Origin: Sphingomonas brevis
GTDB lineage: Bacteria; Pseudomonadota; Alphaproteobacteria; Sphingomonadales; Sphingomonadaceae
Length of the DNA stretch: 64,000 nucleotides
Assembly: GCF_023516505.1 (NCBI RefSeq)
Contig: NZ_JAMGBB010000001.1
Span: forward strand, 1,860,001 to 1,924,000
Direction: 5' to 3'
Position numbers and translations under genes: made by a program. The notes beneath the pieces were generated by a model. The model ran no database searches. It worked only from the letters and a program-made list of their open reading frames with translations, and had not been told where the DNA came from. Shown here piece after piece: positions 39,960 to 63,837 of this stretch; the stretch's first letter is position 1, and each line of letters opens with the position of its first letter.

Positions 39960-40337
39960 GCGATTCCTCCCACGAGCACCCGCGTAAATTGATCGTGGTT
40001 AAGGGATCGATAATTCCGGGTATCAATGTTTGCAGCGATCCGCTTGCCCTGGGCCGGCCGTTGTGGCTCGCGTGGGCGGATCTCGCCGTATTCGACCCAA
40101 AGCGGCCGTTAGCGGAATGACCGAGTTCAACCCATCGCGCACATGGCGACCGTCATCCGAACAACGGGAAATGCATCGTTGGCATGACTGCGATGATTGA
40201 TTGATATTCGCGTTCGGCGGCACATTTTTCCTACGTTGAGGTAGATGATGGGCTGACGGGTTCGGTCTGATGCTCAGAGCCTGTAATGTTGAAGCCGCGC
40301 TCCCGGGTTTTGACGGGACCTCTCGCTGGAGAAACTT
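39960..40337. other. Intergenic region with degenerate palindromic repeats
   Basis: A 378-bp gap between divergent genes. It contains two degraded relatives of the window's palindromic repeat: a half-copy at about 40090-40112 (GACCCAAAGCGGCCGTTAG) and another at about 40116-40147. The rest has no coding frame I trust. Promoters for the PAP2 pair and the serine hydrolase are presumably here but no clear -35/-10 was found. Confidence 0.45.
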
Positions 40338-41474
40338 ATGTGCCTTCTCGCCACCCTGGCCCTTTGCGCCGCCACGATGACGCCTTCTGCGTCCATTGCG
40401 CCGTCTGCAAACGGTCGTGAGGCTGCGGCGCTTACCCACGCCATGGCTGGGTCAAAGACACCCGGCATGGCTGTGCTGGAAATTCGCAATGGCTTTCCTC
40501 AGGTCGAAGCCGTGAGCGGCAAACGGCGCATCTCCCGTCCGGATCCCGTGAAGGTAGGCGACCGCTGGAATTTGGGCTCCGACGGCAAGGCTATGACCGC
40601 CACCATGGTCGCCAGGTTGGTGGAGGAGGGCAAGTTGCGCTGGGATACACCCCTCGCCCAGCTCTTGCCGGAACTGGCGGCTGACATGCAGCCACAATAT
40701 CGGGACGTGACGCTGCTTGAGCTGTTGTCGCACCGGGCTGGTCTGCCCGAAAATCATGACGATCTGCCGTACTTCTACACCTTTCTTGATGACAAGCGGC
40801 CGCTCCCGACGCAGCGCCTGGACTATCTCCACAAGGCGGTGGCCGATGCGCCGATTGCTCCGGCACGTGGCGAAATGCATTATTCGAACACCGGGTTGAT
40901 CCTGGCGGCCGCAGTTGCCGAACGTGCCGCCGGAAAGCCGTTCGAACAACTAATGTATGAAGAGGTCTTCGGACCACTTGGCATGAAGTCGGCGACATTT
41001 GCCCAGCCAGTGAAACCGAACGAGCCTGTCGGCCATGTGGACGGCCGGGTTGCCGACCAGCCGAAGGATTCGAACCCGCAAATGTTCATGCCTGCCGGAG
41101 GCGTGCGAATGAGCATTGCCGACTGGGCGCGCTTCTGCATTGACCAGATGAACGGCGACCAGGGACACGGCAAACTGCTCAAGCCAGAGACATACAGACT
41201 GTTGCATACAGGGCAGGGTGCTACGCACAGTGCGCTCGGCTGGGGCGTGGCCGCGACGCCGCTCGGGCGGCAGGGACCCGCGCTGACTCACAATGGCTCC
41301 GATGGCAACTGGTATGCCATCGTTGTTCTGTTCCCGAAGACTGGCAATGGCCTGCTCGTTGCCGCCAATGCGGCCGACAGCATGGGAGGTGACAAGGCAA
41401 CGCTGGCGGTTGCGCGCGAGTTGATCGAAGACCTCGCTCCGCCGAAACTCACTGAACCTGCGCCAGCCCTTTAA
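40338..41474 (+). CDS. Serine hydrolase (class C beta-lactamase / PBP4 family)
   Basis: A 378-residue protein with a signal-like N-terminus. The catalytic SxxK is S-D-G-K in NLGSDGKAMTATMVARLVEEG, YSN in MHYSNTGLILAAAV is the second motif, and HNGSDGNW fills the KTG-like position. LSHRAGLPEN is also conserved. The SDGK is unusual, as SxTK is the rule. An esterase or peptidase is more likely than a lactamase. A palindromic repeat (41479-41512) follows the stop. Confidence 0.85.
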   Translation: MCLLATLALCAATMTPSASIAPSANGREAAALTHAMAGSKTPGMAVLEIRNGFPQVEAVSGKRRISRPDPVKVGDRWNLGSDGKAMTATMVARLVEEGKLRWDTPLAQLLPELAADMQPQYRDVTLLELLSHRAGLPENHDDLPYFYTFLDDKRPLPTQRLDYLHKAVADAPIAPARGEMHYSNTGLILAAAVAERAAGKPFEQLMYEEVFGPLGMKSATFAQPVKPNEPVGHVDGRVADQPKDSNPQMFMPAGGVRMSIADWARFCIDQMNGDQGHGKLLKPETYRLLHTGQGATHSALGWGVAATPLGRQGPALTHNGSDGNWYAIVVLFPKTGNGLLVAANAADSMGGDKATLAVARELIEDLAPPKLTEPAPAL

Positions 41475-41478
41475 TAAG

Positions 41479-41512
41479 CTAATGACCGCTTTCCACCCAT
41501 TGCGGTCATTAG
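41479..41512. repeat. Palindromic repeat copy 1 (best copy)
   Basis: Perfect 11-bp arms CTAATGACCGC and GCGGTCATTAG flank the core TTTCCACCCATT, five bases after the serine hydrolase stop. This is the most intact member of the family in the window. Confidence 0.8.
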
Positions 41513-41562
41513 GTCGACCGCCCGGAGTATCGCGTCCCGCCGAGCTTTGATAATCTCGGGCC

Positions 41563-41712
41563 ATGAACACACCGTGGGGGTCTAAGAAAGAGCAGCCGGA
41601 CCGGCCACCCGATTGGCCGATTCAAATACAAGCCACGGACTTTGACGGTCCCGCCAGACCGCTGGTGCGGGGGCGCGTCGTTATCATTTGGGGCATGGCT
41701 AAGCCGAGTTAG
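41563..41712 (+). CDS. Possible 49-residue small protein
   Basis: An ATG frame of 50 codons whose product begins NTPWGSKKEQPDRPPDW and ends VVIIWGMAKPS. The composition (few rare residues, Trp/Asp/Pro balance) looks more like protein than a shadow, but I recognise no family and see no clear ribosome site. It lies just after repeat copy 1. Confidence 0.3.
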   Translation: MNTPWGSKKEQPDRPPDWPIQIQATDFDGPARPLVRGRVVIIWGMAKPS

Positions 41713-42163
41713 GCTTGCCACCTTATTTGATCATTCAACCAATTTCTGCCTCTGGGACGGCACCATACGAATGCCCAGTCGTTGCACATGTTGGTTTGGG
41801 GAACTCGTGCCAAATGATCGCGTCGTTAAAGTAGGGCTACTCCCGGAAAGCGGATTAGATCTGCTCGGCGACGCATTTGCACGACTTTGGCCTGTCCAAG
41901 ACGACCCGTCCTTTGACGACTTATTGATCGTCATCGACATGCAGCCAAAATGTTCATCCCGGCGCTTGCGTATCGGGAAGCCCGCACCGTCCAAATCGCC
42001 TAAAGAACGGGCCAATAGTAATGCCCTGCACAATCACGGAAAACAGAACGACGACGTAGGTTGCCGCGAGGATGATTGTGCGTCCAGGTCCCAGCGGAAG
42101 AGACAGCGCCAACGCAACCGAAATGCCGCCGCGCATCCCGCCCCAAAGCAGAATCGGCAGTGA
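41642..42163 (+). pseudogene. Possible decayed small gene, fused frame over nhaP 3' end
   Basis: The middle of this frame (about 41800-41945) reads RVVKVGLLPESGLDLL then PVQDDPSFDDLLIVID, which looks like genuine coding sequence of a short hypothetical protein. The frame then runs on into DNA antisense to nhaP without a stop, where composition changes. I infer a small gene that has lost its own stop, or a frameshifted remnant. Low confidence. Confidence 0.3.
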
Positions 42164-43237: not shown

Positions 43238-43310
43238 CGTCGTCTGATGTGCCCAATGACCCAGCAAAAGGCCAGCCAACGGCTTATTAACCGCCCAAAC
43301 CTGCTACCGC

Positions 43311-43341
43311 TAACGACCGCTCTCCACCCATTCCGGCCAAG
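43311..43341. repeat. Palindromic repeat copy 2 (degenerate)
   Basis: TAACGACCGC, then TCTCCACCCATT, then CCGGCCAAGA: the core is kept but the right arm has drifted. It lies between divergent nhaP and a GNAT gene. Confidence 0.6.
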
Positions 43342-43383
43342 ACCGAAATCGACGTGATCAGAATATGAAGCTACGTCTCCAAT

Positions 43384-43887
43384 ATGATTGATCCAAAGAT
43401 TGCCCCGCTTTCAGGCCAAATTCGTGCATCAACTGCGGGCGATGGTAACAGGGTTGTATCCATCTGGCGCGATGCCGTGGATGCCACCCATCATTTTCTG
43501 ACAGTTTCCGACCGGCTGGCAATCGACGTGGCGGTTCGAGATTTCCTGCCAAGCGCACCGATGATGCTGTGGGTCGATGACCATGACGTGGCGGTTGGGT
43601 TCATGATCTTGACAGAGTTTCGAATGGAAGCGCTGTTCGTCGATCCGTCGAAGCATGGAATGGGGATCGGCCGGCGCTTTGTCGAATACGCCCTAGAGAG
43701 ACACCCCACCATTACGACTGAAGTCAACGAGCAGAATCATCAAGCGCGCCGATTCTACGATGGCGTTGGATTCGAAACGGTCGGGCGCTCCGAACTGGAT
43801 GAGGAGGGTCGGCCCTATCCGCTTTTGCATTTGCAATTGCGCCGATCGGCCTATCAACCGCGCTCGCAGCCGCATCGTATCGTTTAG
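43384..43887 (+). CDS. GNAT-family N-acetyltransferase
   Basis: A 167-residue protein with the acetyl-CoA motif A region MEALFVDPSKHGMGIGRRFVEYAL and motif B EVNEQNHQARRFYDGVGFETVGRSELD (in two blocks). This resembles YjaB-type acetyltransferases. The acceptor is unknown. Confidence 0.87.
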   Translation: MIDPKIAPLSGQIRASTAGDGNRVVSIWRDAVDATHHFLTVSDRLAIDVAVRDFLPSAPMMLWVDDHDVAVGFMILTEFRMEALFVDPSKHGMGIGRRFVEYALERHPTITTEVNEQNHQARRFYDGVGFETVGRSELDEEGRPYPLLHLQLRRSAYQPRSQPHRIV

Positions 43888-43931: not shown

Positions 43932-43963
43932 CTAATGTCCGCTTTCCACCCATTGCGGCCATT
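43932..43963. repeat. Palindromic repeat copy 3
   Basis: CTAATGTCCGC, core TTTCCACCCATT, and GCGGCCATT: arms with one mismatch. Lies between the convergent 3' ends of a GNAT gene and a PNPOx-like gene. Confidence 0.75.
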
Positions 43964-43981
43964 TTGCCGGCAACTCCCAGG

Positions 43982-44461
43982 TTACGTTTCCGAATAACTC
44001 CATCCGGATCCATCCCGAACCAGAACAGCGGCGCTGTATCCATTCGGCTCCGGCATTACGTCATGGACAGCGCTCCAGAGTTCTATCCGATCGGGAACTA
44101 GACGTGCGAAAACCGTAGCCGGATCCTCGGGTCCACCGGGATTCCAGCGATAGTGACCCGGCTGCCAGATGGCCCGCTTCAATTCGAGATCCTCGACGAT
44201 TTCGGCCCTTCCGACCAGAGTGACATAACTCTTATCGGCGTCGTGCTGATAAAGCAGCGTCATTCGGCCAGTACTTTCGATCTCGCGGACTTTTCGACAT
44301 CTCCGGTTTGTCATCACATCGACCCTCCAGTCATCCCGCATGGGAAGTGGCTGTACGACGCGCGCGTTTAGATCGCCTGCTTCCGCCTGCGTTACCGCTA
44401 CGCAGAAGGTAAGCTCATCAATCAGCTTGCGGGCCAGGTCTAGGAGCCGTTCTATTTCCAT
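43982..44461 (-). CDS. Pyridoxamine 5'-phosphate oxidase-like FMN-binding protein
   Basis: A 159-residue split-barrel protein. DVMTNRRCRKVREIESTGRMTLLYQHDADKSYVTLVGRAEIV (contiguous across two strands) is the general-stress-protein-26 type of FMN-binding fold. EDLELKRAIW and RIELWS complete the pattern. Substrate unknown. Confidence 0.82.
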   Translation of the reverse strand: MEIERLLDLARKLIDELTFCVAVTQAEAGDLNARVVQPLPMRDDWRVDVMTNRRCRKVREIESTGRMTLLYQHDADKSYVTLVGRAEIVEDLELKRAIWQPGHYRWNPGGPEDPATVFARLVPDRIELWSAVHDVMPEPNGYSAAVLVRDGSGWSYSET

Positions 44462-44513
44462 GTGCTACGCTAAAAATTGATCGGCTGACGTAACAGGGTT
44501 GAAGCCAGTGGCA

Positions 44514-44546
44514 TAATTTCCGCTTTGCACCCATTTCTGCCATTAG
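44514..44546. repeat. Palindromic repeat copy 4 (degenerate)
   Basis: TAATTTCCGC, TTTGCACCCATT, TCTGCCATTAG: recognisable core and ends with several changes. Lies in the short gap upstream of the PNPOx-like gene and downstream of the methyltransferase. Confidence 0.6.
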
Positions 44547-44573: not shown

Positions 44574-45443
44574 TCAAAAGTCAGAGCGACGCGTTCCGAG
44601 TGCCACCCAATAGGGAGCGCAGTCAGAAAAGCGGATATTCTCAAGGCCGCTTCGCTCCATCATTGCCCGGATTTCCGGCTTGGTGAAGCGCTGCTCCAGC
44701 CTCGTTCCAAACCGGTCGAGAGCGTCAGTGCGCATCGTGTAGAAGCTCAGGTTTCGATACCAGTTGAGCGGGATGGAGGAAGGGTCTCGGCCTGACTTCT
44801 CGACGATCCTAGCAGTGCGTGCGAGCGGCCAATAAGTCGTTGCGGCGATCACTGCTGCGACGCCTTTCCGAGCGGGAAAGGGGAGCTTGGAAACGACGCG
44901 TCTCCCAATGTCCGATCCGCGCCACAGCGATTGGAACCAGAGCGGGCGATTGTCGAAGCGATAGTAGATGTAGAGCAAGAACTGGCCGCCGCGCCTGACC
45001 TTGCCAACCGCATTGCGCAGCGCCGCCTCCGGGTCCGGGATGTGATGGAGGACGCCAAGGCTGTAGCCGAAATCCTGGCTGCCATCGGCCAATGGAATGT
45101 CGTCGGCCGACGCGCGATGGAAAGTGACGTTGGGGCAGTCGGCAAGGTTGCGCCGGGCGACGTCGATCGCGTCGGACGGGTCGATGCAGTGCAGCTTGTC
45201 GCACCGCGGCGCGACGAATCTTGCCCAGCGCCCCGATCCGCAGCCGAGGTCGAAGCCTTCGCTGAGATCGGTGAAATCGAACATCGAGAAATAATCGCCG
45301 AACATGCTGCGGGCATCGTCGTCGCTGAGCACGGACTGGTCGAACGAATGCCACTCACGGCCAAAGCCCTCGACAGTTGCATGATCGATATTCTGCACGG
45401 CGAGGTTCCTATCGGCGGGCTGCCCGGAAACTTCAAGGAACAA
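44574..45443 (-). CDS. Class I SAM-dependent methyltransferase
   Basis: A 289-residue protein with EGFDLGCGSGRWARFVAP as motif I, CIDPSDAIDVAR, DFGYSLGVLHHIPDPEAAL and VRRGGQFLLYIYY. The C-terminal 110 residues include hydrophobic stretches (LPFPARKGVAAVIAATTYW) and a final CAPYWVALGTRR. It resembles Methyltransf_11 enzymes with an added C-terminal domain. Substrate unknown. Repeat copy 5 lies just upstream. Confidence 0.82.
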   Translation of the reverse strand: MFLEVSGQPADRNLAVQNIDHATVEGFGREWHSFDQSVLSDDDARSMFGDYFSMFDFTDLSEGFDLGCGSGRWARFVAPRCDKLHCIDPSDAIDVARRNLADCPNVTFHRASADDIPLADGSQDFGYSLGVLHHIPDPEAALRNAVGKVRRGGQFLLYIYYRFDNRPLWFQSLWRGSDIGRRVVSKLPFPARKGVAAVIAATTYWPLARTARIVEKSGRDPSSIPLNWYRNLSFYTMRTDALDRFGTRLEQRFTKPEIRAMMERSGLENIRFSDCAPYWVALGTRRSDF

Positions 45444-45764
45444 GCACCGCTACCAATTAAGGGCGGCAGGCGATGCGCTTTCTGGCGGCTCTCCACCCAT
45501 TCCGGCCATTAGAATCTGCCCTGGGAAATCGATGGAAGTCTCCACTTCGGACCTTTGCCGTTTCGTCCATCAGAGCATAGTGCGAGTTAGTCTGACAGCA
45601 CCCTAGCCGGAAGTCCGCCATCGTTTTGGAATGAGATCGATGATCGCTTGCGCTGCGCGGGAGTCTCAGGTCCGAATCCGATGCTTCAAATATGGATGCA
45701 ACGTGCCAAGTGACGATTCGCTGACTTCAAACGAATTGGTGAAGGAAGCCCAGCGGACGACACA
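45444..45764. other. Intergenic region
   Basis: 321 bases between divergent genes. Repeat copy 5 is at the left. No coding frame, terminator or clear promoter was seen in the remainder. Confidence 0.4.
45481..45512. repeat. Palindromic repeat copy 5 (degenerate)
   Basis: TGGCGGC followed by TCTCCACCCATT and CCGGCCATTAG: left arm eroded, core and right arm kept. Confidence 0.6.
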
Positions 45765-46187
45765 ATGAATCAGGAGAAACTCACCATCGCCTCACGGCAG
45801 GTCTCGCCAGACCAGATCGGCGAGTTGGAAGACCGGTTCTACGAATTCAACGCGGCCCGAACCGGCCATCGCGACTACGCTCAACTCGCATTCGTTGCGG
45901 AAGCCGCTGGCGCGGCCGTGGGCACAATCGCTGGCTTCACCTGGGGAGGCTATTGCGAGTTGCGGCAGCTTTGGATTGACGAGGATCATCGGAGCAAGGG
46001 CCTCGGCCGGCGTTTGATCACAACGGCGATTGAGGAGGCCAGGAGCCGCGGATGCGTCGCGATCTATCTTGCGACCTATTCGTTTCAGGCTCCCGGCTTT
46101 TACAAACGCTTTGGTTTTGAACCCGTGGTTGAGATTGAGAACAGGCCGGTCGGCCACAGCGACTTCATCATGCGGCTAGCGCTTTAG
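45765..46187 (+). CDS. GNAT-family N-acetyltransferase
   Basis: A 140-residue protein with LRQLWIDEDHRSKGLGRRLITTAIEEARSRG (motif A, in which R/G-x-x-G-x-G is KGLGRR), then ATYSFQAPGFYKRFGFEPVVE (motif B). Typical GNAT length. It is followed directly, stop to start, by the HAD gene, so the two are probably co-transcribed. Confidence 0.87.
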   Translation: MNQEKLTIASRQVSPDQIGELEDRFYEFNAARTGHRDYAQLAFVAEAAGAAVGTIAGFTWGGYCELRQLWIDEDHRSKGLGRRLITTAIEEARSRGCVAIYLATYSFQAPGFYKRFGFEPVVEIENRPVGHSDFIMRLAL

Positions 46188-46961
46188 ATGGAGTCCCGCC
46201 CGCCAATAGTTTCGACGCGGCGGCAGCTTCTCACGCTGGTCGCAGTTGCGGCGTCGCCTGGCCCGTTGTTCGGCCACCCACCGCGCCGCATTCGGGCGAT
46301 CGCCTTCGATGGCTTCGTGCTATTCAGTCCTCAGACGATCGTGAAGCGCGCGCGCGAGGTGGCTGGTGAAAAGGGCGATGCCCTGGTCTCGGCAGCCTCC
46401 GGGATGCTGTTTGGATATACTTGGTATTATACGAGCGCACGCAAATACGCCGGGTTCGACGAGCTCGCTGAGGATGCTTTCAAGTCAGCCGCCCAGAGCC
46501 TTGGCCTCAACCTCAGCAACACTGATCTCGAACAGTTGGTCGAAGGTTATTCAAATCTCGAGCTGTGGCCGGATGTGCCCGGTGCGCTCCAAACGCTGCG
46601 GCGTCATAATGTCCGATTGGCGATGCTCTCCAACCTTTCGGAGCGAGCACTCATGTCGAACCTTCGTACCAATGGGGTCGATGAACATTTTGAATTCGTT
46701 CTCAGTACGGACGCAGCGCGGCAGTATAAGCCAAGCCCGAAGGCTTATGACCTCGCCGTACGGGCTTTCAAAATTTCCAAAAGCGAGATTGGCTTCGCGG
46801 CGTCCGCGAGCTGGGATGCATCGGGCGCAACCTGGTTCGGATTTCCGAGCATTTGGGTGAACCGCAATGGACTTCCGGCCGAGCAAGCCCATGCCGTGCC
46901 GACCGTCATCTCCAGTGGGATGGACGGGGTACTTCGGCTGTCAGGCCTGCAGACGCTCTAG
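46188..46961 (+). CDS. Exported HAD-like (haloacid dehalogenase type II-like) hydrolase
   Basis: A 257-residue protein. The N-terminus STRRQLLTLVAVAASPGPLFG looks like a twin-arginine or Sec signal. The HAD motifs are IRAIAFDGFVLF (Asp nucleophile), LAMLSNLSE (motif II), the lysine in QYKPSPKAYDLAVRAF, and a motif IV region SASWDASGATWFG. This order matches L-2-haloacid dehalogenases, with motif I altered (DGFVLF in place of DxYGTL). A periplasmic dehalogenase-type enzyme is unusual. Confidence 0.78.
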   Translation: MESRPPIVSTRRQLLTLVAVAASPGPLFGHPPRRIRAIAFDGFVLFSPQTIVKRAREVAGEKGDALVSAASGMLFGYTWYYTSARKYAGFDELAEDAFKSAAQSLGLNLSNTDLEQLVEGYSNLELWPDVPGALQTLRRHNVRLAMLSNLSERALMSNLRTNGVDEHFEFVLSTDAARQYKPSPKAYDLAVRAFKISKSEIGFAASASWDASGATWFGFPSIWVNRNGLPAEQAHAVPTVISSGMDGVLRLSGLQTL

Positions 46962-46962
46962 C

Positions 46963-47574
46963 TTAAGTCGTAAGCGCGCGGAGGCGCTCCATCGACGGGC
47001 GTGCCCCGACGGCTGCCGCCCAGCGGCTTAGTGCGGCATACTGAGAAAGGTCGACGGCCCCGAAAGCGGTGAAGGCAGACACGCCTAGAAATGCGGTGAT
47101 GTCGGCAACAGAGAAACTATCGCCGACAATGAACAAGGTTCGTTCGAGCTGCTCATTGAAGGCAGCCAAGGCTCGCTGAGCTCGGACGGCCAGCACGACG
47201 GCCCATTCGGGATGCTGCTCGACGTGACCGACGAACATCGGATGCGTCTGGTGGACGTATTCGATGGCGGGGGCGTAGACGAGGAGTTCCGCACGTCTTT
47301 CCCAAAGCTCGACCTGGAGCTGCTCGTCTTCAGAGTCGCCAAATAGTCCGGTGTGCCATTGGCGATGCAGGTGGCGGCAGATCGTCAGCGATTCAGAGAT
47401 CATCTCCCCCGAATCCGTTTCCAGCACCGGCACCGTTCCAAAAGGGTTGATCTTGAGAAACGCGGGTGAGCGAGTGTCCGAAACCTCAACCTCCTGGAGC
47501 GCGTGGCCGCATTCATCGAGAAAGATCTGTACCTTGAGCACACTCGGCGCCGGCGTCTTCACATGGAGTTTCAT
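46963..47574 (-). CDS. Glutathione S-transferase family protein
   Basis: A 203-residue protein. The thioredoxin-like N-terminal domain shows APSVLKVQIFLDE, INPFGTVPVLETDSGEMISES (cis-Pro and ES pair) and the C-terminal alpha domain has FIVGDSFSVADITAFLGV with the N-capping Ser/Asp. ATG 47574 preceded by GAAGGG. Convergent with the HAD gene by one base gap. Confidence 0.88.
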   Translation of the reverse strand: MKLHVKTPAPSVLKVQIFLDECGHALQEVEVSDTRSPAFLKINPFGTVPVLETDSGEMISESLTICRHLHRQWHTGLFGDSEDEQLQVELWERRAELLVYAPAIEYVHQTHPMFVGHVEQHPEWAVVLAVRAQRALAAFNEQLERTLFIVGDSFSVADITAFLGVSAFTAFGAVDLSQYAALSRWAAAVGARPSMERLRALTT

Positions 47575-47587
47575 CGAGCCCTTCAAT

Positions 47588-48091
47588 CTATGCGGCAAGC
47601 GTGGTCAGGACGAGTTCGAATTCAATCGCATCGTTGAGCGGGATGCGGCTATCTTCAGTATATTTCGGGTAACCATTCTCCACGGTGAATGCATCGCGGA
47701 CAATTTGCGACGCCCGGAATCCGTGACGGAGATAGAAACGGATGGCGTTCGCATCGGCGATAGACGTCGATACCCTCAGACTCTTCGCCTTTTGCATGCG
47801 GCAGTAGCGAACCACCTCCTTCATAAGCGTTCCGCCAATGCCTTGCCCTTGGCGCCACGCGACAACGGCAATGCTTTTGAGCTCGAAGACATCCTGAGCT
47901 TCGGTTTCAAGGATTAGGGCTTGGCCCAGCGGCTGGCCGAACTGTGAGGCAACTAGGACCTCACCACGGTAGAGATACAAGAGAATCTGCCGGTTGGAGT
48001 CGTCCGCGAGTTGGAACAATGACATGAGCTCCCGGCGATCACGCCGAAACGGCGAGCACCAGATTCGATCCGCTGCTGATTGGAGAAGCAT
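47588..48091 (-). CDS. GNAT-family N-acetyltransferase
   Basis: A 167-residue protein with ELKSIAVVAWRQGQGIGGTLMKEVVRYC (motif A with Q-G-I-G-G) and SIADANAIRFYLRHGFRAS (motif B). ATG 48091 lies two bases after the upstream stop; TTG 48124 is an alternative. Substrate unknown. Confidence 0.84.
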   Translation of the reverse strand: MLLQSAADRIWCSPFRRDRRELMSLFQLADDSNRQILLYLYRGEVLVASQFGQPLGQALILETEAQDVFELKSIAVVAWRQGQGIGGTLMKEVVRYCRMQKAKSLRVSTSIADANAIRFYLRHGFRASQIVRDAFTVENGYPKYTEDSRIPLNDAIEFELVLTTLAA

Positions 48092-48093
48092 AA

Positions 48094-48822
48094 CTAGATC
48101 GAGGTCGTCAGCTGGACCAGCCAATCGGGTGCCGCTTGGACGAACCGAGCTTCGATGATCCGATCAAGACCGCTCAGAATCAGAATGCTCACGACGAGCA
48201 AAATCACCCCAAGCGCCTTCTTGGCGATCTTGGCGTTGGCCGCGAGACCGTGCCTCATGCGTTGAAACAGGCTTCTGCCCAGTAGGGCAATACTCAGCAA
48301 GACCGCCGCAATGCCGGTGGCGAAGGATGCCATCGTCAGCGCGACGCTCGAGAGCTGCTGCCCTTGGGCAGCGAGCGCAATTGCCGCGCCCAGCGTTGGG
48401 CCGACGCACGGACTCCACACTAGTCCAAGCAGTACGCCAATCGCCGCTTGGCCCCAAATGCCGCCATTGTCGAAGGCCTGCTGCCGATCGCCCGCCCAAG
48501 CCACAAGCGGCGAGGCCAATTTAGCGACAAGATCCTGGAGTCCCGGAATTATGAGGAAGATGCCAGCTGCGCCGAGAATCAGCGCACCACTTGCCCTTAG
48601 GTGATCAGCGTCGACGCCGAGACGAGTGCCGAATGCTGCGACTATGAACCCGACGATTGTGAAGCTCGCGATGAGACCGACGGCAAGCGCCAAGGCGCCA
48701 AACCGGTGCTGCTGTCCCGCGGATGCGAGCACCACCGGGACGAGTGGCAGGACGCACGGCGAGAGTATGGTGAGAGCTCCGGCAACAAACGCCAGGAGCG
48801 GGTTGAAAACCTCGCCGGACAT
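48094..48822 (-). CDS. CcdA/DsbD-type membrane thiol-disulfide carrier
   Basis: A 242-residue protein with six helices. The two redox cysteines lie in LSPCVLPLVPVVL (helix 1) and WSPCVGPTLGAAIAL (helix 4), each next to Pro as in CcdA. This protein passes electrons from cytoplasmic thioredoxin to the periplasm. The adjacent upstream gene encodes a periplasmic thioredoxin, its likely partner; both are on the - strand, divergent from the ECF sigma gene. Confidence 0.92.
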   Translation of the reverse strand: MSGEVFNPLLAFVAGALTILSPCVLPLVPVVLASAGQQHRFGALALAVGLIASFTIVGFIVAAFGTRLGVDADHLRASGALILGAAGIFLIIPGLQDLVAKLASPLVAWAGDRQQAFDNGGIWGQAAIGVLLGLVWSPCVGPTLGAAIALAAQGQQLSSVALTMASFATGIAAVLLSIALLGRSLFQRMRHGLAANAKIAKKALGVILLVVSILILSGLDRIIEARFVQAAPDWLVQLTTSI

Positions 48823-48828
48823 TTGGGG

Positions 48829-49215
48829 CTAGCGAAGCGCCGACGCAATGAGTGCGGTCACCTTTTTTGGGTCCGCATCATAAGCGAGGCGGGCCGTTTC
48901 ACGCCGACCATGGAAAGCGATCAGCGTTGATTGCTTTTGAGCTCCGAAGCTCGTCCACAATGGCTTTTGCGTATCATAGTCGATCGTGAGGACGGTGACG
49001 TTCCGAAACACCGGAGTGGACAGCAATTTGCTGATGGTCGTTTCTTGGGCTCGGCAAATTGGGCACCAGCTCGCATGCACGAACACAATCGTCGGAGCGT
49101 CCTTGGCCTGGAGCGCCTGAAAGGCCGCTCGGTCGAAGTTACGAATCTCGCCAGCACTCGCTGGGGCGGCGGCCATTACGATTGCTGCGACGGCCATGGA
49201 AAAGAAGGCTCGCAT
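48829..49215 (-). CDS. Exported thioredoxin-like protein
   Basis: A 128-residue protein with a signal peptide ending PASAG. The active site is ASWCPICRAQE (CPIC), followed by VLTIDYDTQKPLW and an STLIAFHGRRE segment, where thioredoxins have the cis-Pro loop; here the cis-Pro appears to be replaced by Ser (KQSTL). It probably exchanges electrons with the CcdA-type protein six bases downstream. Confidence 0.87.
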   Translation of the reverse strand: MRAFFSMAVAAIVMAAAPASAGEIRNFDRAAFQALQAKDAPTIVFVHASWCPICRAQETTISKLLSTPVFRNVTVLTIDYDTQKPLWTSFGAQKQSTLIAFHGRRETARLAYDADPKKVTALIASALR

Positions 49216-49286
49216 GTCAGTACCTCATGCTAGAATTATGAAGCTGCGCTGGCCAACAGGGCAGGCCAGTTCAGCGATCACCGCGG

Positions 49287-49931
49287 GTGGCGACTGCAGG
49301 TGAATTCGTGAAAGAAAGCTCGACGGTCACAAAATTCTCTGAAGGGACTGTGACCAAACGTGGCGGTGAGGCGAATTCAGTGTCGGGAATCGATGTGATT
49401 GCGCGCGAAGCTGAACTGAGAGCACGCATGATCCGCGCGCTTGATGGCGACGCCGCGGCTTATGATGCGCTGCTGCGCCTGTTGGTGCCACAGCTGCGGG
49501 CCTTCTTTAACCGGCGGGTCCAAAGCGAGGACGTTTCGGAGGACCTCGTGCAGGAAACTTTAATTGCCGTGCACACCAAGCGGTCGACCTACGATCGGGC
49601 GCGGCCTTTTTCGGCGTGGCTCTATGCGATCGCGCGCTATAAAATGGCGGACCACTTCCGACGATCATATCGGCTGATGCCATCCGAGTATCTTGACGAG
49701 CAGATTGCTGCTCCTGACTTCGAGCTTGCCAGCCTCGCGTTGATCGACGTTGACCGATTGCTCGGCGATTTGCCCGTGAAGCAGCAGGCTGCAATCCGCG
49801 CCACGAAAATCGAGGGATTGTCACTGTCAGAAGCTGCTGCCGCGGCAGGCATCTCCCAGTCGGACGCCAAGATGTCAGTGTATCGCGGGCTCAAGCGTCT
49901 ATCCGCACGAGTACAGGGGAAAGTGAGATGA
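49287..49931 (+). CDS. ECF RNA polymerase sigma factor (SigF-like)
   Basis: A 214-residue sigma-70 family protein. Region 2 has SEDVSEDLVQETLIAVHTKRSTYD and FSAWLYAIARYKMADHFRR; region 4 has LPVKQQAAIRATKIEGLSLSEAAAAAGISQSDAKMSVYRGLKRL. GTG 49287 gives a 40-residue N-terminal tail; later starts (49380, 49428) are possible. It overlaps the NrsF-type anti-sigma gene by four bases, and the SigF-NrsF pair of Caulobacter controls bufferin genes, here just downstream. Confidence 0.9.
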   Translation: MATAGEFVKESSTVTKFSEGTVTKRGGEANSVSGIDVIAREAELRARMIRALDGDAAAYDALLRLLVPQLRAFFNRRVQSEDVSEDLVQETLIAVHTKRSTYDRARPFSAWLYAIARYKMADHFRRSYRLMPSEYLDEQIAAPDFELASLALIDVDRLLGDLPVKQQAAIRATKIEGLSLSEAAAAAGISQSDAKMSVYRGLKRLSARVQGKVR

Positions 49932-50581
49932 CTTCCGTGCAGCGTCCAACCGACGAATTGGTCCAGTCTCTGGTGTCGGGGCTCCGGCCGGTGCCGCGGG
50001 CGGCCGTTGCGCTTCGATTGGCGCTTGGAGCGACAGCGGGAGCGGCGATTTCCGTCGTCCTTCTGATATCCATCGTGGGAATGAGGCCAGACCTAGGCGT
50101 GGTTGTTAACTCGGTCCGCTTCTGGTCGAAGGCATCCTATATGATCGTCACGGCCGGGATTTCCCTGCTTGTCGCGGCACGCCTGGCTCGTCCCGGTTCG
50201 AGCACGAACATCCTGTGGCTCCTTCCAATCCCGCTGTTGATTTATCTTCCCGCGGCCACTTTTGAGCTGGTCCGGACCACCCCTGCAGACCGCATGGCAT
50301 TGGTTCTCGGCCATGGTTGGCAGCTGTGCACCTGGTTGGTTCTGGCTCTCTCCATTCCGATCTACGCCGGCCTGTGGTGGGCCTTCCAATCATTCGCGCC
50401 GACCCGCATGGAGGCGACGGGTGCAGTCACTGGCCTCTGCGCGAGCGCGATCGCCGGAGTCATCTATTGCCTTCATTGCCCGACTGACACTGCCGTGTTC
50501 GCATTGGTCTGGTATACCCTAGCGTTTGCTGTCGCGGCCATTGTCGGTCGCCGGTTTGGGCCACGACTTTTGCATTGGTGA
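49928..50581 (+). CDS. nrsF: NrsF-family (DUF1109) anti-sigma factor
   Basis: A 217-residue inner-membrane protein with six helices. The cytoplasmic N-terminus TDELVQSLVSGLRPVPR is the DUF1109 opening. The helices are separated by short loops, and cysteines appear in WQLCTWLV, GLCASAIAGVIYCLHCP, so metal or redox sensing is possible. NrsF holds the cognate ECF sigma at the membrane until a signal releases it. Confidence 0.9.
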   Translation: MTSVQRPTDELVQSLVSGLRPVPRAAVALRLALGATAGAAISVVLLISIVGMRPDLGVVVNSVRFWSKASYMIVTAGISLLVAARLARPGSSTNILWLLPIPLLIYLPAATFELVRTTPADRMALVLGHGWQLCTWLVLALSIPIYAGLWWAFQSFAPTRMEATGAVTGLCASAIAGVIYCLHCPTDTAVFALVWYTLAFAVAAIVGRRFGPRLLHW

Positions 50582-50587
50582 ATGAAT

Positions 50588-50613
50588 GTAACTTTTGTCG
50601 CTGCTCCGACGAA
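50588..50613 (+). promoter_or_regulatory. SigF-type promoter upstream of bufA
   Basis: GTAACT at 50588-50593, then exactly 16 bases, then CGAA at 50610-50613. From memory the Caulobacter SigF consensus is GTAACC-N16-CGAA, so this differs by one base. It lies 50 bases before bufA and seven bases after nrsF ends, so the buf operon can be driven by the sigma encoded just upstream. I saw no second copy before the sigma gene. Confidence 0.7.
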
Positions 50614-50662
50614 ATCCTGATGCCGGTTCGGCATCAACCCATTTCGTGGAGTTCAAGCGACC

Positions 50663-50929
50663 ATGTCCTATCTCAAACCTACCCTGAGTATCGCCGCCAC
50701 GGCAGCCGTACTGGCCCTCAGCGCGACGGCGCCGACTGCTCCCGCCTTTGCCGCCAAGAGCGCGGAGGTGGCGCCATGCTACGGAGTCAATGACTGTAAA
50801 GGGCAGTCCGACTGCAAGACCGCCAAGAACGAATGCAAGGGGCAGAACTCCTGCAAGGGTCAGGGCTTCAAGGACCTGACCAAGGATCAGTGCGCCAAGG
50901 CAGGTGGCAGTCTGACGCCGCAAAGCTAG
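50663..50929 (+). CDS. bufA2: BufA2-type periplasmic bufferin (DUF2282-like)
   Basis: An 88-residue precursor with a signal peptide ending PAFAA. The mature peptide has six cysteines at regular places: VAPCYG, VNDCKGQSDCKTAKNECKG, QNSCKGQGF and KDQCAKAG. The NxCKGQ spacing is the bufferin pattern. Such peptides are modified by the MNIO enzyme to carry thiooxazole-type copper-binding groups and are exported to buffer metal. The gene is preceded by a SigF-like promoter. Confidence 0.9.
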   Translation: MSYLKPTLSIAATAAVLALSATAPTAPAFAAKSAEVAPCYGVNDCKGQSDCKTAKNECKGQNSCKGQGFKDLTKDQCAKAGGSLTPQS

Positions 50930-50937
50930 CTTCCTAA

Positions 50938-50965
50938 GCCCAGCTCGTCTGAAAACGAGCTGGGC
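50938..50965 (+). terminator. Stable hairpin between bufA and bufB
   Basis: Perfect 11-bp arms GCCCAGCTCGT and ACGAGCTGGGC with a CTGAAA loop, eight bases after the bufA stop. Only CCCTTT follows, so it is not a classical strong terminator. It probably protects the bufA 3' end and lowers read-through, giving more peptide than enzyme. Confidence 0.7.
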
Positions 50966-50987
50966 CCTTTCCCAAGAGATCACAGTA

Positions 50988-51824
50988 ATGATCAGCGAAG
51001 GCCAACCACGCCTTTTCGGCCTGGGGCTGCGCAAGCCTCACTACCGACAGTTTGCCGAAGGCTCCGTGCCGGTCGATTTTGTCGAGGTCATCTCGGAAAA
51101 CTTCATGGTTGAAGGCGGACGACCGCTTGTCACCCTGTCCCGGGTCCGAGAACATTATCCCGTCGCGCTCCATGGCGTTTCGATGTCGCTGGGGTCAGTT
51201 TCGGGATTGAATGACGTCCACTTGGATCAGCTCCAATTGCTAATCGACCGGGTGGATCCGCTCTTCGTTTCGGATCATCTCTGTTGGACCGGATACGAAG
51301 AGTTCAATTCGCATGATCTGCTTCCACTTCCCTATACCGACGAAGCGCTGAGCATTGTTGGGCGAAACATCGTCAAGGCACAGGAACGTCTCGACCGACA
51401 GATCCTGATCGAGAACCCGACAAGTTATGTGACTTTCGATCACTCGTCGATGACCGAATGGGAGTTCATCCGCGAACTCACCCAACACACCGGCTGCGGC
51501 TTGCTGCTCGACGTCAATAACGTGTTCGTGAGTGCAATGAACCATGGGTTCGATGCACTGCATTACCTCGAAGCCCTAAGAGGCTGCGACGTCCGCCAAA
51601 TTCATCTCGCGGGTCATGACGATACAGGTTCGCTCCGGATCGACACCCATGACCGGGACGTCTGTGCCGCAGTCTGGGAACTCTATTGCTTAACGATCGC
51701 ACTTTTTCCGCAGGCGGCGACCATGATTGAGCGCGACGACGAAATTCCGCCGATCGAGTGGCTGTTGGCCGAGCTCAATCAAGCGCGGTCGATTGCGGGT
51801 CGAGCCGCAGCCTTGGTGAGCTGA
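50988..51824 (+). CDS. bufB: Multinuclear non-haem iron-dependent oxidative enzyme (DUF692) BufB
   Basis: A 278-residue TIM-barrel enzyme. It has GLGLRKPHY, EVISENFM (metal-binding Glu and Asn), ALHGVSMSLGS, LFVSDHLCW, ENPTSYV, LLDVNNVFVSAMNHG and IHLAGHDD; the His/Asp/Glu/Asn set is the family's iron-binding pattern. MNIO enzymes rearrange cysteines of the partner peptide. The gene follows bufA by 58 bases across a hairpin and overlaps bufC (TGATG). Confidence 0.93.
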   Translation: MISEGQPRLFGLGLRKPHYRQFAEGSVPVDFVEVISENFMVEGGRPLVTLSRVREHYPVALHGVSMSLGSVSGLNDVHLDQLQLLIDRVDPLFVSDHLCWTGYEEFNSHDLLPLPYTDEALSIVGRNIVKAQERLDRQILIENPTSYVTFDHSSMTEWEFIRELTQHTGCGLLLDVNNVFVSAMNHGFDALHYLEALRGCDVRQIHLAGHDDTGSLRIDTHDRDVCAAVWELYCLTIALFPQAATMIERDDEIPPIEWLLAELNQARSIAGRAAALVS

Positions 51825-52582
51825 TGAGGCTCCGGGACCTCCAGCGGGAATTCAGCGAATGCCTTCGCGACGGTCGCGCGCGGCATAAATTGCCAATCGT
51901 CGGTGATGGGCTGCGCGTCTACCGGAATAACTATCGGGAGCAGCTTCGTTCAGCACTCAGAACGGGATTTCCCTATCTGGCACTCTGGCTTGGAGATTCG
52001 GAGTTCGAGCGCGCTGCCGATGCGCATATCGCTCTTCAGTTTCCGGCGAGCTGGACCTTGGATCATTATGGATATGACTTCTCCGCGACGGTCCAGGCGC
52101 TATTTCCTCAAGACCCCGAAGTTCCGGAGCTTGCGTGGCTCGATTGGGCGATGGCCGAGGCGCTTGTTGCCGAGGATGAGGCGCCTATCGACACGGGTCA
52201 CCTCACGCAGCTCAATTGGGATGATGCACGCATCATTTTCGTATCGTCCTTGAGGACTTCGGAAGCGCGGTCCAATGCCGCCGACATTTGGTTGGCAATC
52301 GACGAGCAATCGCCCCCTCCACCTGCGGCCATCTTGTCAGAAAGTCATGCCTATATTGTTTGGCGCCGCGGACTCCTGCCGTGCTTCAGGTCGGTTCCGA
52401 TCTGGGAGTTTCAGGTCGTCTCGGCGCTTAAGGATGGCTCCAGTTTTGCCGATGCATGCGAGATCCTCCGGCTTAGGTTTGGTACCGAAGGCGCAATTGG
52501 CTCCGCTAGTGACATGCTGGCTCGCTGGCTTAGCGATGAGCTCATCACGCGCGTTGAATCAGGAGTGCTGGGCGAAGTGTAG
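51824..52582 (+). CDS. bufC: BufC partner protein (DUF2063 domain)
   Basis: A 252-residue protein with the DUF2063 N-terminal domain: LRDLQREFSECLRDG then LRVYRNNYREQLRSALRTGFPYLALWLG. This domain binds the precursor peptide and presents it to the MNIO. The C-terminal winged-helix-like part has WRRGLLPCFRSVPIWEF. ATG 51824 shares bases with the bufB stop. Repeat copy 6 lies downstream. Confidence 0.9.
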   Translation: MRLRDLQREFSECLRDGRARHKLPIVGDGLRVYRNNYREQLRSALRTGFPYLALWLGDSEFERAADAHIALQFPASWTLDHYGYDFSATVQALFPQDPEVPELAWLDWAMAEALVAEDEAPIDTGHLTQLNWDDARIIFVSSLRTSEARSNAADIWLAIDEQSPPPPAAILSESHAYIVWRRGLLPCFRSVPIWEFQVVSALKDGSSFADACEILRLRFGTEGAIGSASDMLARWLSDELITRVESGVLGEV

Positions 52583-52726
52583 CCATCGGCAGGTCGAGCA
52601 CGAATTAGCTCCTAGGAGCGCATACCTTGTGGCCCCCTTGGCTAGCGCTCTCGACGCAGCTGAGCACTGTCTCAGCTGCGTCCCCCCGCACTCAGGAATT
52701 GCAATTCTCCGCCCCCAGAGACATTC

Positions 52727-52760
52727 CTAATGGCCGCAATGGGTCGAAAGCGGTCATTGC
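52727..52760. repeat. Palindromic repeat copy 6 (reverse orientation)
   Basis: CTAATGGCCGC, AATGGGTCGAAA and GCGGTCATTGC, which is the reverse-complement orientation of the core with one change. Downstream of bufC and upstream of a small membrane protein. Confidence 0.7.
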
Positions 52761-52790: not shown

Positions 52791-53027
52791 ATGTGGGGGC
52801 TTCGGTTTCGCAGGCTGATCTCGTGGCTAGTGCTGATAGGGGCGTCGGCAGCCTATTGGGCCGAACTCGCGCCGTTTCTGCACACCAAAAAGCAGTACAT
52901 CGATGCTTTCATTATTTTCGTGGTCTTGTTCTTCGGCGCACTCGCGGCATTGGTATTTGTCTTGCGGCTGCCAACTTCGAAGGAGGGACCGACACCTAGA
53001 GTGATCCCGAGATTGGAAGAGTCCTAG
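52791..53027 (+). CDS. Small membrane protein, two helices, unknown
   Basis: A 78-residue protein with a basic start (MWGLRFRRLISW), a helix (about 10-27) and a second helix (about 42-63, IIFVVLFFGALAALVFVL). The hydrophobic pattern and absence of rare codons suggest a real gene. A GTG at 52773 is an earlier possible start. It is flanked by repeat copies 6 and 7. No family recognised. Confidence 0.55.
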   Translation: MWGLRFRRLISWLVLIGASAAYWAELAPFLHTKKQYIDAFIIFVVLFFGALAALVFVLRLPTSKEGPTPRVIPRLEES

Positions 53028-53057
53028 CAGCCGCAATAGGTGGATAGCGGACATAGG
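53024..53057. repeat. Palindromic repeat copy 7 (degenerate)
   Basis: CTAGCAGCCGC, AATAGGTGGATA, GCGGACATAGG: reverse orientation with drift in the left arm. It overlaps the stop of the small membrane-protein gene by four bases. Confidence 0.6.
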
Positions 53058-55878: not shown

Positions 55879-55894
55879 GCACCGAACGATTGGC

Positions 55895-55927
55895 CAATGT
55901 CCGGAATGGGTCGAAACCGGTCATTGG
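55895..55927. repeat. Palindromic repeat copy 8
   Basis: CAATGTCCGG, AATGGGTCGAAA, CCGGTCATTGG: reverse orientation, arms mostly kept. It lies in the 72-bp gap between convergent anti-sigma and oxygenase genes. Confidence 0.7.
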
Positions 55928-59660: not shown

Positions 59661-59694
59661 CTAATGTCCTCTTTGGGTCGAAGACGGACATTGG
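59661..59694. repeat. Palindromic repeat copy 9
   Basis: CTAATGTCC-T, CTTTGGGTCGAA, GACGGACATTGG: ends well kept, core altered. It lies between convergent kynU and YciI genes. Confidence 0.65.
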
Positions 59695-59725
59695 TAACCG
59701 TATCCAAGGCCTAGGAGACTGATCC

Positions 59726-59995: not shown

Positions 59996-60021
59996 TTGTT
60001 CGAGGAGCTGCCATGACGTTG

Positions 60022-61719: not shown

Positions 61720-61728
61720 AAGAAGTCG

Positions 61729-62274: not shown

Positions 62275-62390
62275 TGAGATATCTCCTTCTCGGGCCGCGG
62301 GATGCGGCCTCCCAACAACGAATGCCATTCGCGCACTTCTGTGATAATCCGGTCATTGCCCACTTCACTCATGCGAATAACGGGATAATC

Positions 62391-63377
62391 ATGGACCGAC
62401 TGGATATGCTTCGGACCTTCGTGGCGGTCGCGGACAATGCCAGCTTCGCCGAAGCTGCGCGGCGCTTGCGGATCTCGCCGACAGCTGCAAGTCGTGCGGT
62501 CGCTGTCCTTGAAGCCTCGCTTAGTACCGTTCTGCTTCGTAGAACAACTCGTTCAGTTCGGACTACGGCCGAGGGAGCCATCTATCTAGATAAGTGCCGC
62601 GCGGTGCTCGCTGATCTCGACGACGCGGCGCTTGCCTTACGCGGCGACGCCGCGACGCCAGGCGGAACCCTGGTCGTCACCGCGCCGGTCACGTTCGGGC
62701 GGCTCCATATCGTCCCAATCGTGACCGCAATGCTACGTGCTCACAGTACGCTCAGGGTCGAGCTAACTCTGGTCGATCGGGTGGTTCGGCTGGTTGATGA
62801 AGGGATCGACGTCGCGGTTCGGATTGGAGATCTATCGGATAGTGCCCTTTACGCGCTTAAGGTTGCTGAAGTGCGTCGCATCCTTGTCGCCAGCCCCCGT
62901 TATCTCGCAGTACATCCAGCGCCTGCTGGTGTCGCCGGCCTGCACGGCCATTCTTTGATTTCGTTTGACGAACTGGATCGCACTCAGGAGTGGCGGTTCG
63001 GCTCCAGCGGCAAGCCGGCTATACGGGTCGGGCCGCGACTTATCGTAAATGCCGCCGATGCGGCAATCTCGGCGGCCATCGACGGCTTGGGGATAGCGCA
63101 TGTGCTTTCATACCAGGCTCTCGACGCGATTTCTTCCGGGCAACTGGTGACATTGCTTGACGACCTCGCACCGCCTCCGATCCCTGTCCACTTAATCTAT
63201 CAGGCCAACCGTCGGACGTCGGTGAACGTCCGCGCTTTCAACGACGCCGCGCGAATGCATTTCGGGCGGCTGGACCTTTCCGGACGGCTGACAACTGCGT
63301 CCACCAGGGGCAAAAGAAAAATCGCTCTGACGACCGCAATCGGTGGAAAGCGGCCACTAGTTCGAGGCCGCACCTAA
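62391..63377 (+). CDS. LysR-family transcriptional regulator
   Basis: A 328-residue protein. The winged helix-turn-helix is at about residues 4-62 (MLRTFVAVADNASFAEAARRL, ISPTAASRAVAVLEASL), and the effector-binding domain follows (GGTLVVTAPVTFGRLHIVPIV). ATG 62391 gives the canonical N-terminus. The last 16 residues are encoded by repeat copy 10. It is divergent from the AhpD-like gene, a usual arrangement for LysR control. Confidence 0.93.
   Translation: MDRLDMLRTFVAVADNASFAEAARRLRISPTAASRAVAVLEASLSTVLLRRTTRSVRTTAEGAIYLDKCRAVLADLDDAALALRGDAATPGGTLVVTAPVTFGRLHIVPIVTAMLRAHSTLRVELTLVDRVVRLVDEGIDVAVRIGDLSDSALYALKVAEVRRILVASPRYLAVHPAPAGVAGLHGHSLISFDELDRTQEWRFGSSGKPAIRVGPRLIVNAADAAISAAIDGLGIAHVLSYQALDAISSGQLVTLLDDLAPPPIPVHLIYQANRRTSVNVRAFNDAARMHFGRLDLSGRLTTASTRGKRKIALTTAIGGKRPLVRGRT
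63328..63360. repeat. Palindromic repeat copy 10 inside the lysR 3' end
   Basis: TGACGACCGC, AATCGGTGGAAA, GCGGCCACTAG. It lies within the coding region of lysR and adds a C-terminal tail reading LTTAIGGKRPLV, and it also spans the end of the convergent CdiI-like gene. Confidence 0.65.
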
Positions 63378-63779
63378 GTCGGGGAGATTGAGGCTTTCAC
63401 GGAACGCGTCGTTCTCATCGGCCGGCCGCTCCAACGCTCGATGATACAATGCCGGGAGCACGGCAGCATACTCAGGCCGCTCCCTCCATACGCCCGGCTC
63501 AGCCCGAATGAGGGAAGAAAGCACATCGCCGGGATAATAGCCGCCTTCGAACAATGGGTCAGCTTCAAGCTTGGGCATGACGAAATCAAGCACGCATGGG
63601 AACCCATCGGATTGCGCGACCAGACACCCGATTTCCGCATTGGTGAGTTGGTAAAGTGGCTTCTTCCAGGACTGCCAGACTGCCTTGACCAATGGCATCG
63701 GCGCCTGTCGCGGGTCACCCGCGCTCAAACCCGTCAGTTCCTCTAGCGACAATGAAAAGTCGGTCGGTTTCTGTTTCAT
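63357..63779 (-). CDS. CdiI-like contact-dependent inhibition immunity protein
   Basis: A 140-residue soluble protein. KKPLYQLTNAEIGCLVAQSDG and LEADPLFEGGYYPGDVLSSLIR match the CdiI immunity family (KPL..LT..E...L..Q..G and DPL..G.YYPGD). No cdiA toxin or cdiB transporter is seen in the window, so it is an orphan. It overlaps the end of lysR by 21 bases. Confidence 0.8.
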   Translation of the reverse strand: MKQKPTDFSLSLEELTGLSAGDPRQAPMPLVKAVWQSWKKPLYQLTNAEIGCLVAQSDGFPCVLDFVMPKLEADPLFEGGYYPGDVLSSLIRAEPGVWRERPEYAAVLPALYHRALERPADENDAFRESLNLPDLGAASN

Positions 63780-63803
63780 TGGTCGCCGTCATCGCAGCAC
63801 GAC

Positions 63804-63837
63804 CTATTGTCCGCAATGGGTGGAAAGCTGCCGTTAG
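63804..63837. repeat. Palindromic repeat copy 11
   Basis: CTATTGTCCGC, AATGGGTGGAAA, GCTGCCGTTAG: reverse orientation with a few changes. It lies between ridA and the CdiI-like gene. Confidence 0.7.

Follow-up and report, generated by a model that had tools for sequence, protein, structure and literature searches.

The window analyzed here is a stretch of 64,000 nucleotides of the Sphingomonas brevis genome (bases 1,860,001-1,924,000 of 2.59 Mb), whose right-hand part carries a family of short repeats with inverted arms. These repeats were studied together with the genes between them and with related loci of other genomes. A preliminary description of the window had listed eleven palindromic copies and two degraded ones near 40.1 kb, and none in the first 39 kb. 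Scanning with the 34-mer CTAATGTCCGCTTTCCACCCATTGCGGACATTAG and counting matches with at most 10 mismatches gave 11 distinct places, which all lie to the right of 41.4 kb (one of them scored on both strands, making 12 counts), and no match in 20 Markov shuffles of the window. A weight matrix built from 96 copies of the S. brevis genome, window copies included, returned 13 sites at ≥ 12 bits, namely the earlier eleven and the weak ones at 40079 and 40114, which bears out the earlier count. With the same matrix, no full site was found in the left 39 kb, as had been described. As controls, ten shuffled windows were without a match at 8 bits, and eight 20-kb stretches from other parts of the genome were without one at 14 bits. 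The lone match in the left half to a 16-base part of the site (position 10417, 2 mismatches) is not a full site.

The sites are real and form a 34-bp family, in which 11-bp arms lie on either side of a conserved 12-bp core, TTTCSACCCATT. The consensus of the 96 copies is CTAATGNCCGC-TTTCSACCCATT-GCGGNCATTAG. The core is better conserved than most arm positions, and beyond the 34 bp there is next to no conservation. The fifth core base splits the sites into a G-type (TTTCGACCC) and a C-type (TTTCCACCC). At the most variable arm position the two halves of a copy pair in 31 of 96 cases, which is no better than the proportion of 0.32 between random copies. A mutual-information test did find an association between these two columns. 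A comparison of pairing across neighbouring sites with pairing within a site showed no signal.

Within the window the sites form two arrays. Array A (plus strand, 40.1-45.5 kb) begins with a degraded site with the core TTCGACCCA (40079..40112, 16.8 bits) and, 1 bp past it, a second degraded site (40114..40147, 19.5 bits). They are followed by a gene for a beta-lactamase-family protein (PF00144; 40467..41474, plus strand) and a C-type site with perfect 11-bp arms, which has 2 mismatches to the consensus and can form a full hairpin (41479..41512). The further sites of array A, all C-type and found by both the 34-mer scan and the weight matrix, lie at 43310..43343, 43932..43965, 44513..44546 and, as the final one, 45479..45512. 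The cassettes between them contain genes for a Na+/H+ exchanger (PF00999; 41954..43237, minus strand), a GNAT acetyltransferase (43477..43887, plus strand), a pyridoxamine-phosphate-oxidase-like protein (43982..44461, minus strand) and a methyltransferase (44574..45398, minus strand). The latter has an 84% identical 848-bp copy in another array of the same genome (L031; here and below, L-numbers denote genomic loci and G-numbers genomes).

Array B lies on the minus strand. Its first site, which is G-type, is located outside the window at contig position 1,926,441, and the array enters the window through a C-type site at 63804..63837. Both scans placed its other window sites at 63327..63360 (C-type), 59661..59694, 55894..55927 (both G-type), 53024..53057 (C-type) and 52727..52760 (G-type). 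The two C-type sites at the right edge enclose a one-gene cassette for a CdiI-like immunity protein (PF18616; 63357..63779, minus strand); the gene stands alone, and a toxin partner is not visible. Arrays A and B converge on a stretch (45513..52726) that has no site at 12 bits and in which no recombinase of the family described below was found. The mixed orientations reported previously therefore have to be corrected: the seven sites at 40.1-45.5 kb are all on the plus strand and the six at 52.7-63.8 kb all on the minus strand.

Across the S. brevis genome, the 16-base part of the site had 82 matches with at most 2 mismatches at about 25 places, and its reversed control had none. The confinement to an accessory half that had been noted thus holds within the window, but the family as a whole is spread over the genome. 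The genome contains 21 groups of two or more sites, and neighbours less than 4 kb apart have the same orientation in 75 of 79 cases. We extended this analysis to 487 sites in loci of eight Sphingomonas genomes, most of the loci having been picked for holding sites or a recombinase, and found the same orientation for 363 of 386 neighbour pairs. The first site of a group is G-type in 17 of the 21 S. brevis groups, compared to 15 of 75 later sites. Among the 71 arrays with at least three sites in the eight genomes, 58 start with a G-type and 60 end with a C-type site. Forty tight C/G site pairs with a gap of less than 12 bases were detected in S. cremea (G014) and others, 32 of them in the order C then G. 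The units between sites have a median length of 636 bp, and 171 of 313 units contain one called gene and 42 more than one. The sites are therefore organized in arrays, being less than 4 kb apart and separated mostly by single genes.

The preliminary description had also suggested a function in termination. The copies would then be transcription terminators or mRNA-end elements selected in gene-dense islands, and they do often lie directly after stop codons. However, the 11 terminator-like sites predicted in 44-64 kb are fewer than in shuffles (mean, 17.7), and none of them overlaps a copy. When six window copies were folded as DNA, one formed the full 11-bp hairpin and a second a partial one, whereas four of the six formed no full or near-full two-arm hairpin. 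Neither in 44-64 kb nor in these six copies did we find the stable hairpin with a T run that characterizes an intrinsic terminator. Moreover, the direction of the copies is not tied to that of the genes, 166 genes between copies running along the site direction and 122 opposite to it in the eight genomes, which gives the sites a direction distinct from that of the genes. We consider a terminator role very unlikely.

Recent copies of cassettes were used to locate the position at which exchange may occur. In the following, the site index is counted from 0, with the core at 11-22. Eight copy pairs with 88.7-99.7% identity switch partner inside a site. Four of the numbered cases pair two loci within one genome each, namely L226/L277 (case 1, G022, 99.7% over 350 bp), L180/L187 (case 3, G014, 98.4% over 374 bp), L276/L277 (case 4, G022, 97.2% over 290 bp) and L220/L291 (case 6, G010, 97.4% over 543 bp). 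Case 2 consists of tandem copies in L277 of G022 (99.5% over 754 bp), cases 5 and 7 link different genomes (G022 L227 with G010 L293, 97.4% over 2 kb; G078 L151 with G014 L181, 88.7% over 666 bp), and the eighth pair is G010 L221/L235 (97.4% over 390 bp). At the left site of all eight pairs the outer part differs and agreement begins at the core, single bases excepted in cases 5 and 7. The last outer difference of cases 1-7 is at index 13, 3, 13, 15, 6, 8, and 15, respectively. At the right site, the five readable pairs (cases 1-4 and L221/L235) agree up to the core, one base excepted in case 2, and then diverge, the first difference being at index 16 in case 1 (the next at 21), at 29 in case 2, and at 25 in cases 3, 4 and L221/L235. 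Cases 1, 3, and 4 bracket the crossover at index 14-24, the others are compatible with this, and all eight pairs are consistent with a crossover point located between 15|16 and 20|21.

A transposon carries both of its ends along whole, and exchanged half-sites are a mark of site-specific recombination. As half-sites have been exchanged here rather than whole ends carried, the alignments point to site-specific recombination and not to transposition. A transposon with two different ends (G-type left, C-type right), a model derived from the C-G dimers of S. cremea, was dropped in view of the half-site exchange and of one dimer case in which the partner changed at the C-type core and the G-type site was carried along.

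Likewise, the half-sites bear on the proposal that the copies are REP-type or miniature mobile elements. If they were repetitive extragenic palindromic (REP) sequences or bacterial interspersed mosaic elements (BIMEs) spread by an IS200-like REP-associated tyrosine transposase (RAYT), or miniature inverted-repeat transposable elements (MITEs), the palindrome itself would be mobile. The copies are indeed short, palindromic, mostly intergenic, and numerous, and the described parts of the REP/BIME-RAYT system likewise include numerous short extragenic palindromes (PMC2817692, in part). However, the Y1 transposase family PF01797, the linked transposase whose presence had been suggested as a check, had no match in the S. 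brevis genome, and the control matched in 5 of 14 known genomes. In addition, neighbouring copies share one direction in place of the alternation found in BIMEs, and the moving unit starts inside one copy and ends inside its neighbour, gene included, with the site halves exchanged. A mobile, interspersed family remains an apt description insofar as the sites are tied to mobile accessory DNA and their positions are not conserved, but a single copy is not a miniature element. We regard a REP- or MITE-like origin as highly improbable.

Cassettes are shared between species. The case 5 cassette is 97.4% identical over 2 kb, compared to 79% at a conserved gene of G022 and G010, and the case 7 cassette 88.7% identical, compared to 74% for G078 and G014. 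Since these cassettes are far more alike than the species are at a conserved gene, they evidently travel between species. Further support for an exchange of array contents comes from comparisons with relatives, the nearest of which is G078 (88% identity at a conserved gene). In L031 and L155 the flanks match into both boundary sites, with no match at all for the contents between them. L051 and L071 have a common first site and a common gene for a 563-amino-acid protein, and the intervening DNA is without a match. The 9.6-kb array of L046 is wholly absent from L162, which in turn carries sites near 10.08 and 10.73 kb, about 3 kb away, where S. brevis has none; the flanks of the empty L162 site are too diverged to reveal the exact target of a first insertion. 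In the more distant L074 and L077, genes matching the flanks of the L051 array in size and order adjoin without a site between them. For the window itself, genes at 38.9-40.0 kb were compared with S. cremea together with genes of locus L048 located at about 73.2 kb when the window numbering is extended; their best matches are separated by about 190 bp there, in an otherwise rearranged region. Within the S. brevis genome, a two-part cassette is permuted round a site (L039:10718-12584 and L053:9326-11149), as would be expected from a circle or a tandem duplication.

A search for the tyrosine recombinase family PF00589 over 17 genomes revealed members of about 200 amino acids that stood out. Twelve of these small members were inspected, of which the one in L235 belongs to another family (22% identity); of the remaining eleven, eight are located inside arrays, the three exceptions being L222, L223, and L234. 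All four small recombinases scanned match PF00589 at 64.9-75.1 bits. The small recombinases consist of the catalytic domain only, as the three linked proteins tested match Xer models of 263-360 residues from position 107 or later. R48, K76, H145, R148, H171, and Y180 are invariant in seven aligned rows, and their catalytic roles are presumably those known for the tyrosine recombinase family; the small proteins thus have the R-K-H-R-H-Y signature predicted for such an enzyme. The sole solved chains matched at E 0.001 were XerD, XerH, an XerC-like protein, and XerA.

A relative at E ≤ 1e-40 was found in 37 of 71 genomes of the genus. A tree of the 30 recombinase loci returned contains a clade of 16 members with a support of 100/100, in all of which sites adjoin the recombinase gene. 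Thirteen members lie between converging C-type sites (C+ INT C-); in two others one of the flanking sites is G-type, and the last member is accompanied by a site on a single side. The proteins have 182-260 amino acids when counted from the earliest start codon, mostly about 200. Sequence comparison therefore shows a linkage between the sites and this clade. In G022, a gene for a SOS-response-associated peptidase (SRAP) lies beside the recombinase gene inside the converging sites (L226:8624-9241, L227:8533-9150); its family (PF02586) was scanned in L227 alone, and L226 carries a copy of the unit with 91% identity.

The other 14 loci of the tree form a second group, of which 11 have no sites within about 1.3 kb. 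In L222, L234, L250, L253, L254, L256, L257, and L262 we noted 210-amino-acid members that are nearly identical in several species, those of L253 and L254 being identical, and that have no recognizable sites close by; a further member, L223, has sites only about 7.5 kb away. The site pattern is absent from five of 37 genomes of the genus. Among these five, G001, G019, and G035 have no recombinase match, the copy of G006 was not placed, and G002 has one copy in the tree, which belongs to the second group. No recombinase was found at E 1e-40 in S. brevis, S. cremea, or the incomplete G033, all of which have many sites, and a tblastn search of the analyzed loci of S. brevis and S. cremea with four recombinases gave nothing better than E 0.027. 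As no such gene was found in the S. brevis genome, its arrays look like orphans. Five other S. brevis tyrosine recombinases were considered as catalyst and rejected: two gave phage-integrase-type matches and one an Xer-type match, none of these three reaching the curated cut-offs, and the remaining two had no match to any model at E 1e-10.

Two alternatives would dispense with the small recombinase. Host XerC and XerD might act on the sites, as they do on the pdif modules of Acinetobacter plasmids. In the site-rich S. cremea, PF00589 has just three matches, two of them with XerC- and XerD-like scores (131 and 118 bits), and S. brevis has XerC- and XerD-like genes as well. However, all five site-free genomes also hold two XerC/XerD-like matches (≥ 112 bits). 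The dif site, which is recognized by XerC and XerD, has 28 bp and an 11-6-11 layout, from which the 34-bp sites differ by their 11-12-11 layout and their GC-rich arms. The linked clade of small recombinases is the better candidate, and a role of XerCD as catalyst appears quite unlikely. Alternatively, the sites could be mere 34-bp homologies used by RecA-type homologous recombination without a dedicated recombinase. This would agree with the many arrays of S. brevis without a linked recombinase, and the tandem duplication in L277 and the permuted cassette of L039 and L053 could arise in this way. On the other hand, eight of eight copy pairs fit one crossover window of about five bases, the 16-member clade always has sites alongside, and cassettes are found in unlinked arrays and in different species. 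We therefore judge it improbable.

Taken together, the repeats are probably the recombination sites of gene-cassette arrays, which would work like integrons with different parts. Each 34-bp copy would serve conservative site-specific recombination, with a layout like that of lox or dif: the two 11-bp inverted arms may bind the recombinase, and the asymmetric 12-bp core gives the site its direction. The strands would be exchanged in or at the core, the most likely place being close to TTTCS^ACCCA. A cassette would accordingly comprise the DNA between two successive cores, in many cases with one gene in either direction, and could be excised or inserted between sites of the same orientation, probably through a circular intermediate. 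Arrays mostly open with a G-type and close with a C-type site, and the two types may have different roles. The likely catalyst is the tyrosine recombinase of about 200 amino acids comprising the catalytic domain only, whose gene lies between converging arrays in related genomes. The window would then be an orphan locus with two converging arrays minus the gene, either immobile now or served in trans. The cassettes may be useful to the cell.

Several observations weigh against this interpretation. S. brevis and S. cremea, the two site-richest of the 37 genomes scanned with the site pattern, have no recombinase match at E 1e-40, and the action of the linked clade on the sites is deduced from sequence. 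The similarity between the two methyltransferase copies ends hundreds of bases short of the site in L031, and older shared cassettes do not end at sites. With respect to the crossover, three of the eight pairs are readable on the left side alone, case 2 confines it only to index 4-28, the difference at index 15 in case 7 might be a later mutation in view of the 88.7% identity, and two older pairs (cases 8 and 9) gave no crossover information. A swap of halves is also conceivable, in principle, by homologous recombination of the 34-bp repeats. As for the arrays, 23 of the 386 neighbour pairs are opposed (16 convergent, 7 divergent), 13 of 71 arrays have no G-type start and 11 no C-type end, and a simple gene caller found no gene in 100 of the 313 units.

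Integrons are the textbook system for cassette capture, and the similarities are extensive: directional arrays in which mostly one-gene cassettes each adjoin a partly palindromic site, an array-borne gene for a tyrosine recombinase, orphan arrays without an integrase, and cassettes common to several species. The arrays of S. brevis, S. cremea, and G033, which have no recombinase, resemble the clusters of attC sites lacking integrases (CALINs) of integrons. The core sites of attC have the motif RYYYAAC/GTTRRRY, which is not present in the 96-copy consensus. The integron integrase IntI is distinguished by an IntI-specific additional domain (PMC9668308, in part). We used the integron-integrase model TIGR02249 in place of the domain itself, and none of the three linked recombinases matched it at E 1e-5. 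One unlinked relative reached 25.7 bits compared to a cut-off of 265, and none of the seven S. brevis tyrosine recombinases passed an integron-integrase cut-off, the best being the XerD- and XerC-like proteins with 97 and 95 bits. The system at hand is thus integron-like in its working, yet fails the tests applied here for both integrase and site. It further differs in having a catalytic domain alone, 34-bp sites with the crossover in or at the central core, a recombinase gene placed where two arrays converge, cassette genes that run either way, and 21 groups of at least two sites in a single genome. As to an insertion point like attI beside the integrase gene, it is mostly C-type sites that flank the recombinase, but contents also change beside the G-type end (L051/L071).

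Among other known systems, pdif modules are likewise small and gene-bearing, and are bounded by short inverted-arm sites of tyrosine recombinases. The sites described here differ in length, core, and arms, do not appear to be of the 28-bp dif type, and have a dedicated small recombinase linked to them and arrays of one orientation. FimB/FimE-type invertases and shufflons also employ tyrosine recombinases of about 200 amino acids on short sites, but they invert the DNA between inverted sites, whereas the cassettes are bounded by direct repeats. The DNA-invertase models PRK09870 and PRK09871 matched solely the XerC- and XerD-like proteins of S. brevis.

Relatives of the recombinase also occur outside the genus. 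A total of 1,945 plasmid records match at E 1e-5, most of them with less than 60% identity, which may simply be other tyrosine recombinases; 95 have at least 60% identity, and 391 cover at least 80% of the query. Non-genus recombinase loci were examined for flanking inverted pairs, scored against shuffles, by a test that is not very sensitive, as two of three linked positive controls scored above shuffles (L249, L247) and L255 did not. At most testable loci outside the genus, no flanking inverted pair above shuffles was found. The clearest exceptions are Bosea L239 (27.2 compared to 12.8), L297 (19.6 compared to 12.0), and the viral contigs L319 (16.0 compared to 13.8) and L321 (16.4 compared to 12.6); L294 (16.6 compared to 12.8) also scored above shuffles, and a few other loci only slightly. 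In L239, the Bosea plasmid pNBC550, a recombinase relative at 5797-6726 lies within a 58-base inverted pair with AATGTCCGC arms, hinting at related sites outside Sphingomonas. A core guessed for other genera of the family failed, with one match each in 3 of 99 genomes. That relatives exist both on plasmids and in other Proteobacteria, in a few cases with inverted sites of a related kind around them, suggests a more widespread system that has been overlooked.

Cassette arrays run by tyrosine recombinases are known already; the site, the enzyme, and the layout are different here. In open-licence papers we found no description of such a system. The plasmid relatives are annotated as "tyrosine-type recombinase/integrase", and parts of it may therefore be known under other names. 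On balance, we favour the view that this is a second, independently assembled cassette-capture system beside the integron, in which a minimal tyrosine recombinase without a core-binding domain drives about 20 arrays across small-genome Sphingomonas chromosomes and shuttles single genes, whatever their direction, among arrays and species. If so, its different sites and far smaller enzyme would provide a natural test of what cassette capture requires, i.e., which sites, which direction, and which location of the enzyme, and the system would account for the patchwork of accessory genes in these genomes. Owing to the plasmid relatives, the same question can be put outside the genus. A recombinase of 200 amino acids with a short site might also become a handy laboratory tool.

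Two further features of the window concern its site-free parts. Between the converging arrays, at 49380-52582, genes for an extracytoplasmic function (ECF) sigma factor, an NrsF-like anti-sigma factor, a small open reading frame, an MbnB/TglH/ChrH enzyme (PF05114) for ribosomally synthesized and post-translationally modified peptides (RiPPs), and a DUF2063 protein follow each other in a row; we take this operon to resemble those for copper-binding RiPPs of the bufferin type. In the site-free half, where most 2-kb steps have a GC content above 0.6, it falls to 0.517 at 16001-18000.

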